From NCBI RefSeq assembly GCF_004762035.2, contig NZ_SIJK02000007.1, positions 1-64,000 on the forward strand: a stretch of DNA of 64,000 bases. The letters run 5' to 3'. The DNA is from Candidatus Chloroploca mongolica (GTDB taxonomy: Bacteria; Chloroflexota; Chloroflexia; Chloroflexales; Chloroflexaceae). Position numbers and translations under genes: made by a program. The stretch's first letter is position 1; every line of letters begins with the position of its first letter. Positions 43,498 through 48,883 of the stretch are shown here, one piece after another. Below the pieces are notes generated by a model. That model ran no database searches. It was not told the origin of the DNA and worked only from the letters and a program-made list of their open reading frames with translations.

Positions 43498-45528
43498 ATG
43501 ACACAGGCAGACTCACCCAACCGCCTGTCCAGGATCATTGTTCGTCTCTGGCCACAGGCCGGCAACCTGCCACTCCGCGATTTCACCATCTTGCAACGCG
43601 AGGTGGTTGGCACCCTCTATGGGGTGGTGCTCTTCGTGTGTATGCTTGGCTGGCTCACCGTCGCCACTGATCTCGCTGACTTGCAGGCCAACTGGCTGCT
43701 GATGCTCAGCGGGATCATCTTTATTGTTATTATCAATCAGTTGAGTTTCTTCTGGATTCTCCGCCAGCCTGATGGCGAGACCGAGATGATCAGTGGCAAT
43801 CTGAGTGTCTTGATCGGCCTGGCAACGCTGCTGATTGTCGGCCCCGGCCTGATCTGGATGTTGTTGCTCGCCCACCTCTTCGAGCTAGCCCACCGCCTCT
43901 GGCAGTATCGTCTCTTTGTCCAGCGTTGGAATGTGATCCGCAATTCGCTCGTCTCGCAAAGTACCCTCGGGCTGAGCTACCTGAGTTGCTACTATGCGTT
44001 CACGATGCTCGGCGGTAGCCTGCCCCCGAACGATCTTGGGCTGACAACGCTTGGCGCGATGCTCGGGGCCTTGCTTGTCTTTAGCGCGGTGTTGCTCGGT
44101 TGTTTTGCCGTGCTCTTTCTCCTGCAGATCGTGCTCAAGCAGACAGCCGGACGGCGCATGGGCATGCAGTACCTCACCCGTTTTGTTGGCTTGACGATCA
44201 TGCCCCCGCTGCCGTTTGCCCTGCTTGGGGCGGTTGTCTACAGCGCCTATGCCCTGACCGGTTATCTCTTCTGGTGCATAAGCGTGGTGATGATCAACCT
44301 GATCGCCCACTGGCTCAGCAAATCGGTCGCCGCAAGCGATCAGCGACGCGAAGAACTCGCCCGTCTCGAAGCGCTCGGGCGCAGTATTTTGACCAGCCCT
44401 CCCGAGCTTGCTGCTCTCCCCACACTACTTGCACAGCACGTTTCCGGCATGTTCCGCGAGCGGCGGATCTGCATTGGGCTCTTTGATGATCAGATCTTGC
44501 TGCGACGACCTGCCGATGAGCCAGTTGATACGCCGCTGCTCGCCTGGCTCGCGGCGCATCCAGTCGAGCGGATCTGGCAACCGCATGAAACCCCACCCTG
44601 GCCCGGGGCCGAAGGCCGCTTTGTGCGCGTCACCATGCCGATCCGTGCCGTCGAGAACGAACCCGCCATTGGCATGATCTTTCTTGAACTGGGCACGCTC
44701 GAAGGCGATCCCGAAAGTATGTTGCCTGCCCTGCAAACCCTGGGCGCAACGATTGTTTCGGCGATCCATCGGGTCGACGAACACCGCCGCACGCTGCGGC
44801 TCCATCGCTTTGATCAAGAACTGGCGATGGCCGGGCAGATCCAGGCAAGCTTCTTGCCCACAAGCATCCCCACCATCCCCGGCTGGCAACTCGCCGCAAC
44901 CCTCCGCCCTGCCCGCGAGACCTCCGGCGACTTCTACGATCTCGTCATGCTTCCCGGTGGCTGCCTGGGGCTTATTATCGCTGATGTCGCCGACAAAGGA
45001 ACCGGGGCCGCCCTCTTTATGGCACTCTCACGGACGCTGCTGCGTACGTATGCGTTTGAGTATCGCGATGATCCCGCGTCGGTCTTGCGTGCCGCCAACG
45101 AACGTATCCTGATGGATACGGACAGCACCATGTTTGTGACGGTCTTTTATGGCATCCTCGACCCCGCCACCGGAACCTTGCGCTACGCGAATGCCGGCCA
45201 CAATCCGCCCTTTTTGCTGCGTCACGATGGCTCACTGGCGACCCTGACCAATACCGGCGTGCCCCTCGGCATTGATCACGAACGCACCTGGGCAACCCGC
45301 GACATCACCCTTGCGCAGGGTGATGTACTCGTCATTTATACCGATGGCATCACCGAAGCGCAGAACGAGCACGAAGAGATGTTTGAAACCAGACGGTTGC
45401 TCACCGTTGCCCGCACCACCACCGACGCCCATCAACTGCAAGAGCACATTCTTGATGCGGTGACGACCTTCGCCGGCAACGCCGCACAATCCGATGATAT
45501 TGCCCTGTTGATCCTCGCCCGCCACTAG
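43498..45528 (+). CDS. Membrane SpoIIE/RsbU-type PP2C phosphatase
   Basis: A 676-residue protein. About six to seven transmembrane helices (residues 38-275) are followed by a GAF-like sensor region (about 290-425) and a PPM/SpoIIE phosphatase (435-672). The phosphatase has metal-binding motifs SGDFYD, IADVADKGTGAALFMA, YANAGHNPP and YTDGITEA. Such enzymes dephosphorylate anti-sigma-factor antagonists. No anti-sigma or antagonist gene lies in the window. No Shine-Dalgarno is obvious; it is probably translated from the obgE transcript. Confidence 0.88.
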   Translation: MTQADSPNRLSRIIVRLWPQAGNLPLRDFTILQREVVGTLYGVVLFVCMLGWLTVATDLADLQANWLLMLSGIIFIVIINQLSFFWILRQPDGETEMISGNLSVLIGLATLLIVGPGLIWMLLLAHLFELAHRLWQYRLFVQRWNVIRNSLVSQSTLGLSYLSCYYAFTMLGGSLPPNDLGLTTLGAMLGALLVFSAVLLGCFAVLFLLQIVLKQTAGRRMGMQYLTRFVGLTIMPPLPFALLGAVVYSAYALTGYLFWCISVVMINLIAHWLSKSVAASDQRREELARLEALGRSILTSPPELAALPTLLAQHVSGMFRERRICIGLFDDQILLRRPADEPVDTPLLAWLAAHPVERIWQPHETPPWPGAEGRFVRVTMPIRAVENEPAIGMIFLELGTLEGDPESMLPALQTLGATIVSAIHRVDEHRRTLRLHRFDQELAMAGQIQASFLPTSIPTIPGWQLAATLRPARETSGDFYDLVMLPGGCLGLIIADVADKGTGAALFMALSRTLLRTYAFEYRDDPASVLRAANERILMDTDSTMFVTVFYGILDPATGTLRYANAGHNPPFLLRHDGSLATLTNTGVPLGIDHERTWATRDITLAQGDVLVIYTDGITEAQNEHEEMFETRRLLTVARTTTDAHQLQEHILDAVTTFAGNAAQSDDIALLILARH

Positions 45529-45637: not shown

Positions 45638-46846
45638 CTACGTACCGCCCGGCCAGAGGGCGACCAGTTCTTGCCAGAGATAGACAAAAAACTCGGGGAG
45701 GCGGGTGAAGAAGCCGGGATCAAAAACAAAGATCAGCGTCAACCCTACGACAAGGGCCAGAAGGATGGCCAGGATGACAATGGAGCGACGCGATATCATC
45801 CGCGGCATCGCGATCCCACCAAGGGCTGGCGGCGGTTCACTGATTTCAACATAGTGCAAGCGCCGAAACTCGTCCATGATCTCTGGTGTCTCAAGCCCCA
45901 GGTAGCTCAGGTACGAGCGGAACATCTGCAATGCAGCAGGGCCACGCGGCAAGAGCGTGAACTTCTCGTCTTCAATCGCCTGTAGATAGGACATCCGGAT
46001 TTTGAGTTCGTTCTCGATCTGCACCAGGGTCAAATGCCGCCGCTGACGCTCGTGGCGAAGTCGTGCTCCGATGCCCGCGTGCTCATCAAGATCAGGGGCA
46101 AGGATCGTTTTGGATCCACCCGAAGCAGCAGGCGGCATGCGGAGCATCGCCATCTCTTCGGCTTCCGTCATAAAGACCCGATCTTCATCAGGAGGGGTGC
46201 GTTGTGGGCCAGGGGCAACCGGTGGCGTGGCAACTGCGGTTGGACGAACCGAGCCAGTCGCGCCAGCAGGTTGGGCAGGCGTTGGCGCTACCGAAGCCGC
46301 TGGGGAGGTCATCGATGGCTCGGGCTTTGGCAGAGCAACAGACACCGGCTCAACGACCGGCGGCGGGGGTGTCACAACAGAACGAGCAGCCGCACTTGCG
46401 CCACTGCTCATATTGCCAGTCGCGCCTGGCGCTAGAGCCTGGGCAGGCTCAACCGTACCTGGGGTAGCCATACCAACCGAGCGAGTCTTCTTCGGTACGG
46501 CAGCGACACGCGCACGCAACCGTGCCACCAGTTCGGCGGAACGATAGGGTTTGCTCACATAATCAACCGCACCCAACGTAAAGGCGCGAACCACATCCTC
46601 TTCACGCGAAGCAGCACTGAGCACAACCACCTGGGTGCGGCCGGCCAGCCGTTCAAGGACATCCCAGCCAGCCTCGTTCCCCGAACGAACCTCGATCATC
46701 ACCAGATCGGGCTTGTGTTTATGAAAGAGTTGCTCGCCATAGACCAGATCACTGCTGTTGATAACTTCAAAATCAGCAAGTTCAAGCTGGATGCTCAGGC
46801 GCGTCAACAAAGTCACATCATCGTCTATAATCAGAATAGAAGGCAA
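45638..46846 (-). CDS. Receiver domain fused to RodZ-like HTH and a membrane helix
   Basis: A 402-residue fusion. A receiver-like domain (3-110) keeps the acidic DDD cluster and the KPY lysine loop but has Glu52 (LVMIEVRSG) in place of the phospho-acceptor Asp. A 140-residue Pro/Ala/Thr linker leads to a RodZ-like helix-turn-helix (about 258-330: GARLRHERQRRHLTLVQIEN), then one transmembrane helix (about 355-375) and a short tail. RodZ proteins tie MreB to the membrane; here a signalling domain replaces part of that design. I start at TTG 46846 (GAGGAG seven bases upstream); GTG 46885 is the alternative. It is divergent from mnmG. Confidence 0.8.
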   Translation of the reverse strand: MPSILIIDDDVTLLTRLSIQLELADFEVINSSDLVYGEQLFHKHKPDLVMIEVRSGNEAGWDVLERLAGRTQVVVLSAASREEDVVRAFTLGAVDYVSKPYRSAELVARLRARVAAVPKKTRSVGMATPGTVEPAQALAPGATGNMSSGASAAARSVVTPPPPVVEPVSVALPKPEPSMTSPAASVAPTPAQPAGATGSVRPTAVATPPVAPGPQRTPPDEDRVFMTEAEEMAMLRMPPAASGGSKTILAPDLDEHAGIGARLRHERQRRHLTLVQIENELKIRMSYLQAIEDEKFTLLPRGPAALQMFRSYLSYLGLETPEIMDEFRRLHYVEISEPPPALGGIAMPRMISRRSIVILAILLALVVGLTLIFVFDPGFFTRLPEFFVYLWQELVALWPGGT

Positions 46847-46918
46847 GCCATCGCTCCTCGCCGGTTTCAGCAGACGGTGATACACTTATCCGGTCGAGGC
46901 GATTATACCATAGTAACT

Positions 46919-48883
46919 ATGCAACATTTATATGATGTCATTGTCATCGGTGCCGGTCACGCCGGGTGTGAAGCTGCCAATGCAGCGGCACGCCTCGGCT
47001 GCCGTACCCTGCTCCTCACGATTGATCTCGATAAACTGGCCCATATGTCCTGCAATCCAAGCATCGGTGGGCCAGCCAAAGGCCACCTGGTGCGCGAACT
47101 TGATGCGATGGGTGGGCTCATTGCCCGTGTGACCGACCAGACGGCCATCCAGATCCGCCTGCTCAACGAGAGCAAAGGGCCAGCTGTGCAGTCACTGCGT
47201 GCGCAGTGCGACAAGCGGCTCTATGCCCAGGTGATGAAAGAGACGCTTGAGCGCATGCCCGGGCTTGATTTGCGCCAAGCTATGGTCGAGCAGATTATCC
47301 CCCTGATGCCCACTGACCCGACCGATCCCAGAGCAGCACGTTTTACCGTTGTCACCCACACTGGCTGGCAGTACCAGGCACGGGCGCTCGTGCTGACCAC
47401 CGGAACCTTTCTGCGTGGCCGTGCTGTCACGGGCCAGGCGACATGGGGGGCCGGGCGTGCAGGCGAAGCACCGGCCATGGCGCTCGGCAATGATCTCGCC
47501 TCACTCGGCTTTCCGCTGGTACGCCTCAAAACCGGCACCCCTCCACGGATCGATGCCCGCAGCATTGATTTTAGCCAGACCGAGATCCAGCACGGCAGCC
47601 GCGTACCCTACTATTTTGGGCACTATTATGCCGATCTCGAAGCCCCTCCCGCCCCAGCTTACCACGGCGAACCAGCCGCCATCTATCCTGCTGCGCTGCG
47701 TGAAGGGTGGCGCCCCCAACTCCCGTGTTATCAGGTCTATACCGGGGCGGACTTTCATCGCCTGATCCGTGCAAATCTCGACCGTGCGCCGCTCTTTAGC
47801 GGGGTGATCGAAGGCGTTGGCCCGCGCTATTGCCCCAGCATTGAAGACAAGATCGTCCGTTTTGCCGACAAAGAACGTCACGGGTTCTTTCTTGAGCCTG
47901 AAGGCTGGAAGACCCACGAAGTCTATGTGCAGGGGTGCAATACCTCGTTACCCGAAGATGTGCAGTGGGCTATGTTGCGCACTATTCCGGCCCTGCGCAA
48001 GGTAGAGTTGATGCGCATTGGCTATGCAATTGAGTATGATGCCGTGCGTACCGGCGAGGTCGGGGCCGATCTGCAAGCGCGGCGCCTTGCCGGGCTCTTT
48101 CTGGCCGGGCAGATCAATGGTACCACCGGCTACGAAGAAGCGGCTGCGCAGGGGCTGATGGCGGGTGTCAATGCGGCTCGTTTCGTCCAGCAGGCTCCGG
48201 CGCTTATCCTGCGCCGTGACCAGGCCTACATCGGGGTGCTCATTGATGACCTCGTCACCAAAGAGATCCACGAACCCTATCGCATGTTCACGAGTCGTGC
48301 CGAACATCGTCTGTTGTTGCGCCAGGACAACGCCGATCTCCGGCTGAGCCCGCTGGCCCACGAACTGGGGCTGATCGACGCTGCCCGCGCTGCCGCTGTT
48401 GAACGACGACGCGACGACGCCGAAGCCCTCTACACAACGCTCATCGAGCGCCGGATTTTCCCATCTGCTGACACCAATGCCCGACTCACCGCCGCAGGGA
48501 TTGGGGCACTGAACAATCCGGCCAGTGCCGCCGACGTGCTTGCCCGGCCCCATGTCGGCTATCCGCAATTGCGCACTGCGCTGGATCTGCCTGAAGCAGC
48601 ACGGGAGATCGAGCAACTGGTCGAAGTCACATGCAAATATGGGGGCTACATCGAACGGCAACAACGTGAAGTCGAACGGATGCGTAAAATGGAAAGTCGG
48701 CGCATTCCTGACACCTTTGATTACCAAGGGCTCAACGGGCTCCGCAACGAAGCGCGCCAGGTCTTGCTCCGGTTCCGTCCAGCAACGCTTGGGCAGGCGA
48801 GTCGGCTCGCAGGCATCAACCCTTCTGATGTCGCCATTTTGTTCTTTGCCCTGGAACGCCGCAACTCGGGAGGCAGCCTGTAA
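46919..48883 (+). CDS. mnmG: tRNA uridine 5-carboxymethylaminomethyl modification enzyme MnmG (GidA)
   Basis: A 654-residue FAD enzyme that, with MnmE, modifies the wobble uridine of tRNAs. The Rossmann motif VIVIGAGHAGCEAANAAARLG opens the protein. CNPSIGGPAKGHLVRE, the GTFLRG and RLKTGTPPRID blocks, and GLFLAGQINGTTGYEEAAAQG are family hallmarks. ATG 46919 is chosen because the FAD motif begins six residues later. There is no Shine-Dalgarno, and TATACC lies at 46904-46909, which would give an almost leaderless transcript. MnmE is not in the window. Confidence 0.95.
   Translation: MQHLYDVIVIGAGHAGCEAANAAARLGCRTLLLTIDLDKLAHMSCNPSIGGPAKGHLVRELDAMGGLIARVTDQTAIQIRLLNESKGPAVQSLRAQCDKRLYAQVMKETLERMPGLDLRQAMVEQIIPLMPTDPTDPRAARFTVVTHTGWQYQARALVLTTGTFLRGRAVTGQATWGAGRAGEAPAMALGNDLASLGFPLVRLKTGTPPRIDARSIDFSQTEIQHGSRVPYYFGHYYADLEAPPAPAYHGEPAAIYPAALREGWRPQLPCYQVYTGADFHRLIRANLDRAPLFSGVIEGVGPRYCPSIEDKIVRFADKERHGFFLEPEGWKTHEVYVQGCNTSLPEDVQWAMLRTIPALRKVELMRIGYAIEYDAVRTGEVGADLQARRLAGLFLAGQINGTTGYEEAAAQGLMAGVNAARFVQQAPALILRRDQAYIGVLIDDLVTKEIHEPYRMFTSRAEHRLLLRQDNADLRLSPLAHELGLIDAARAAAVERRRDDAEALYTTLIERRIFPSADTNARLTAAGIGALNNPASAADVLARPHVGYPQLRTALDLPEAAREIEQLVEVTCKYGGYIERQQREVERMRKMESRRIPDTFDYQGLNGLRNEARQVLLRFRPATLGQASRLAGINPSDVAILFFALERRNSGGSL

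Follow-up and report, generated by a model that had tools for sequence, protein, structure and literature searches.

The minus-strand gene at 45638..46846 of the window (the whole stretch of 64,000 nucleotides that was analysed) encodes a receiver domain fused, via a long linker, to an HTH_25 domain and a transmembrane helix. We interpret the product as a membrane-tethered atypical response regulator in a Chloroflexales family distinct from RodZ, and give this an even chance of being correct. The fusion is probably active without phosphorylation, and its basic HTH would bind DNA or some other partner at the membrane rather than MreB. The earlier note had placed the gene correctly and had described the order receiver, long linker, HTH and transmembrane part, which is confirmed by the Pfam domains and the AlphaFold2 helix at residues 353-375. 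The features are as follows.

45638..46846, minus strand: whole coding sequence, 402 aa, TTG start at 46846, stop codon included
46508..46840, minus strand: receiver domain, residues 3-113 (Pfam Response_reg, AlphaFold pLDDT about 87-96, Foldseek)
46691..46693, minus strand: Glu52 codon at the phospho-acceptor position
46178..46507, minus strand: Pro/Ala-rich linker, residues 114-223, predicted to be disordered (pLDDT mostly <50)
46139..46177, minus strand: conserved VFMTEAEEMAMLR motif, predicted short helix ahead of the HTH (invariant alignment columns; helix 228-236)
45887..46072, minus strand: HTH_25 domain, residues 259-320 (Pfam; family profile)
45722..45790, minus strand: transmembrane helix, residues 353-375 (AlphaFold helix; hydrophobic run following basic RR)
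45641..45721, minus strand: short C-terminal tail with amphipathic helix 379-397, presumably outside the membrane (AlphaFold)
46854..46859, minus strand: Shine-Dalgarno GAGGAG
46902..46910, minus strand: extended -10 element TGGTATAAT, pointing to the fusion gene
46919..48883, plus strand: mnmG, the divergent neighbour, with 72 bp between both start codons; kept neighbour within the window's taxonomic family

Pfam assigns Response_reg to residues 4-110 (62.8 bits, cut-off 30.2) and HTH_25 to residues 262-320. The latter match, with 46.1 bits against a cut-off of 24.6, agrees with the HTH profile proposed in the earlier note, and a profile of the fusion family matches 4gqm, 3fym and 2wus_R over HTH_25. 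An AlphaFold2 model, built on a 28-sequence alignment, predicts the HTH with a pLDDT of about 64-74, a short helix at the VFMSEAEE motif and, in line with the hydrophobic sequence, a single transmembrane helix behind the HTH. The receiver and HTH_25 are separated by a linker of ~110 residues, and the mutual placement of the domains is not readable from the model because the whole-chain pTM is only 0.35. According to Foldseek, the nearest solved folds of the receiver are mostly OmpR/PhoB-type receivers, among them the Glu variant VbrR D51E (7e90). The C-terminal tail would lie outside the membrane, since positive residues precede the transmembrane helix. In L111, L125 and L131, which lie outside the window's family, a long Thr/Pro/Ser-rich repeat forms this tail and perhaps reaches through the cell wall.

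The start of the gene is well conserved. A TTG, GTG or ATG start codon is found at the equivalent position in 28/28 relatives, most of which also have a GGAG/GAGGAG box ahead of it. A perfect extended -10 element, TGNTATAAT, lies 43-133 nt upstream of the gene in 27/28 relatives, while the chance expectation is about 0.0006 per sequence at 60% G+C. As start codon, box and TGNTATAAT are kept in all or most of the relatives, the fusion gene is very likely expressed from its own promoter.

Searching with a C-terminal-half profile, we obtained strong hits (better than 1e-25) in 74 of 82 Chloroflexales genomes, indicating that the fusion, for which the earlier note had suggested a survey of the phylum, is not a local oddity. 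Of the eight genomes without a strong match, only G011 (99%) is more than 86% complete. Within the window's family, 36 of 41 genomes match at 1e-30. The receiver is in one open frame with the C-terminal half in 68 of the 70 loci examined. Outside Chloroflexales, the profile score drops to 1e-20 or weaker among 400 genomes sampled across the phylum, and 20/20 HTH_25 proteins sampled elsewhere in Chloroflexota have HTH_25 and a transmembrane helix without a receiver. Therefore, with presence in the order and receiver-less proteins outside, and within the sampling of Chloroflexota, the fusion is an ancient trait that one order has retained. Beyond this phylum, the scope is one pattern-based scan reaching close relatives, which returned identities of 91% and 88% in two named genomes and places the genome studied here close to Candidatus Chloroploca. 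Three of the Chloroflexales genomes with the protein family are those that we take to be Chloroflexus, Roseiflexus and Herpetosiphon. In G034, the receiver half and the HTH-TM half lie ~155 kb apart on one contig (L292, L293); a natural gene split was rejected because a run of N directly adjoins the HTH half, making an assembly fault probable. Some Chloroflexota outside Chloroflexales have two HTH_25-like stretches and a transmembrane helix in one protein (L263, L265, L266, L269, L272, L275).

A receiver without the phospho-acceptor Asp is called an aspartate-less receiver or pseudo-receiver (PMC12632262, PMC12548384), and the fusion protein is one by this definition. Within the five-residue receiver set (D, D, D, T/S, K), the phospho-acceptor Asp is replaced by Glu52 and the other four residues are present as D8, D9, S77 and K99, so the Asp-to-Glu change described in the earlier note is real. 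A same-genome background of 101 receivers, counted from genome stretches, has Asp at this position in 96 and Glu in three, including the fusion. The two further Glu receivers are L207 and L228. Across 69 fusion receivers, position 52 is Glu in 45, Asp in 24 and nothing else. Such an exclusively acidic site is unusual, since in published aspartate-less receivers Glu accounts for 26% of the substitutions, ahead of Asn, Ser, Gly and Ala (PMC4395418). On a tree built with site 52 masked, Asp and Glu change 8 times, at least 7 of which are forced by well-supported branches, and three Asp members sit inside Glu clades of the window's family. A local sequencing or coding error, considered in the earlier note for the case that homologues carried a normal Asp, was rejected: although Asp homologues exist, the three genomes of the genus all carry Glu, as does most of the order.

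The rest of the pocket is largely conserved, with D8 kept in 67/69, S77 in 66/69 and K99 in 67/69 members. Positions 9 and 52 occur as Asp9-Glu52 (38), Glu9-Asp52 (14), Asp9-Asp52 (10), Asn9-Glu52 (5) and Glu9-Glu52 (2). The D+4 Pro is missing in 69/69 receivers, Asp members too, and the D+8 Gly is invariant. Together, the patterns at sites 52 and 9, the loss of the D+4 Pro and the invariant D+8 Gly suggest selection for an acidic pocket that would be less dependent on phosphorylation. D95, E105 and R109, presumably the equivalents of the PhoB dimer-face residues D101, E111 and R115, are kept in 58, 66 and 62 of the 69 receivers, respectively. One PhoB-type dimer salt bridge is missing because the equivalent of PhoB R91 is Val. 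It is plausible that Glu52 mimics a permanently phosphorylated state. Asp-to-Glu by itself is often insufficient for the active state (PMC4395418), and the repeated Asp/Glu interchange calls for caution against a simple always-on switch.

In the mechanism that we propose, the acidic site 52 would keep the receiver in or near the active state without a histidine kinase. Receivers would pair via the alpha4-beta5-alpha5 face, as OmpR/PhoB proteins do, joining two HTH domains at the membrane, and the paired HTH domains would bind DNA or, perhaps, some protein that is not MreB. The Asp members would probably work alike with a slightly different set-point, because both types share the altered beta3-alpha3 loop. 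The interchange could also mean that site 52 only binds metal or keeps the fold. A further step is more speculative and rather doubtful, namely that an acidic, unphosphorylated site is selected and that Asp/Glu swaps tune a membrane HTH which has turned from MreB to a DNA-binding regulator.

Several other explanations have to be weighed against this. The receiver might still be phosphorylated, with the Asp (perhaps also the Glu) members answering a histidine kinase and the Glu variants merely being tuned. The Asp members nested in Glu clades and the largely kept DD/S/K would fit, but most members have Glu, the D+4 Pro is lost even beside Asp, and, as far as neighbours were inspected, mnmG or mnmE are the conserved ones, making this improbable. 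A scaffold, in which the receiver serves only for dimerisation or docking and the HTH for binding proteins, gathering partners at the membrane and leaving DNA untouched, is somewhat unlikely. Protein binding is known for RodZ-type HTH domains, the long disordered linker with the conserved VFMSEAEE helix offers a possible docking motif, and the Asp/Glu interchange fits a structural role. However, the HTH is basic, not acidic, and the active-site Ser and Lys are almost always kept, which goes beyond the needs of a pure scaffold.

According to the earlier note, the HTH and transmembrane parts are those of RodZ, anchoring MreB. As a second RodZ, the fusion would bind MreB with its HTH, and the receiver would feed a signal into the cell-shape machinery. 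The HTH_25 match, the profile match to T. maritima RodZ (2wus_R) and the single transmembrane helix are in line with this, as are two full-length copies of mreB (L022, L023), for which the earlier note had proposed to look. On the other hand, a separate RodZ of 297 residues is encoded elsewhere in the genome (HTH_25 72.4 bits, RodZ_C 52.5 bits), and Pfam detects no RodZ_C in the fusion protein. The periplasmic domain is also missing in some RodZ proteins, such as CT009 (PMC4047632). MreB binding by E. coli RodZ depends critically on F60 and Y64, and it was lost in Chlamydia when the corresponding residues were changed (PMC4047632). Read from the alignment with 2wus_R, these contact positions are Ala and Met in the window protein instead of aromatics. 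The position of T. maritima Tyr53 / E. coli Phe60 is non-aromatic in 69/70 fusions and aromatic in only one, and that of Tyr57 / Tyr64 is Met, Ile, Leu or Val in 70/70, compared to Phe in 18/18 receiver-less RodZ-type proteins. The mean HTH pI is 8.7 in the fusions versus 5.9 in a RodZ comparison set, which also takes in 2wus_R and three members of the second receiver-HTH_25 family described below; a basic pI is a weak sign of DNA binding. With non-aromatic contact residues and RodZ_C missing, RodZ membership of the fusion was rejected, and a role in anchoring MreB is very doubtful. This suggests that the RodZ HTH fold was reused away from MreB, and HTH_25 plus a transmembrane helix should therefore not count as RodZ by default.

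Our preferred reading, the tethered atypical response regulator, has partial counterparts among known systems. CmrT of C. difficile and ChxR of Chlamydia are soluble OmpR-type regulators with a winged HTH. As aspartate-less Glu receivers (ALR), they share with the fusion the receiver fold, a phosphorylation-site Glu and a number of further key residues, and are thought to be active without phosphorylation (PMC12548384, PMC4395418). The fusion differs in its output, HTH_25 on a membrane anchor, and in the switching between Asp and Glu across its family. RodZ (E. coli YfgA, T. maritima 2wus, Chlamydia CT009 4gqm) has the same cytoplasmic HTH_25 fold and one transmembrane helix, whereas only the fusion has an N-terminal receiver and linker, and it combines a basic HTH with the lack of RodZ_C and of aromatic MreB contacts. 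Membrane-tethered transcription factors of the CadC/ToxR type have an HTH on one transmembrane helix and a periplasmic sensing domain, without a receiver. Like these, the fusion holds its HTH at the membrane by one helix; unlike these, it has a receiver and almost no periplasmic domain. Aspartate-less receiver proteins are already known, and the fusion adds an HTH_25 membrane variant of them. In the open-access literature, we found no relevant account of either a receiver-HTH_25 protein or a response regulator with a membrane anchor. A 2025 paper describes the on/off switching of bacterial pseudo-receivers as a mystery (PMC12632262). Since Asp and Glu have swapped several times in Chloroflexales with most of the pocket kept, the question of whether Glu equals phospho-Asp becomes testable with natural pairs.

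Within the window's family, almost every locus with neighbour sequence has the fusion gene and mnmG head to head. Several members of another family have the fusion gene on the same strand as mnmE and 17-182 nt upstream of it, and one more group has mnmE at a distance of about 0.8-2.4 kb. MnmE and MnmG act jointly in tRNA modification. The linkage may be functional or an inherited gene order. By eye, no palindrome or operator-like repeat stood out in the mnmG intergenic region, and the analysis as a whole yielded no DNA target, binding site or regulon. The -10 element of the fusion gene is <20 bp from the mnmG start codon (46919), an arrangement kept across the family, so transcription of both genes may interfere. 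On the other side, a SpoIIE-type phosphatase gene (43498-45528) adjoins the fusion gene; it is not shared outside the genus in the loci compared.

Some Chloroflexales have a second receiver-linker-HTH_25-TM protein with a normal Asp, encoded by the following ORFs.

L245, L253, L260 and L283-L291: second-family ORFs, e.g. L283, 5257-6054, minus strand

Both families share the domain order and the transmembrane helix at the C-terminal end, showing that this order recurs in Chloroflexales and is no accident of the fusion gene. In contrast to the fusion, the second family has a canonical receiver, whose loop is of the DVMMP type in the majority, and no VFMSEAEE motif in the members read. Instead of being beside mnmG, its gene lies directly after, or overlaps, a gene whose product has about 990-1290 aa, and both of these large neighbour proteins that were scanned contain HEAT repeats. 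A Ser/Thr kinase-like gene, recognised by eye, is found near the loci L283-L291 in several genomes.
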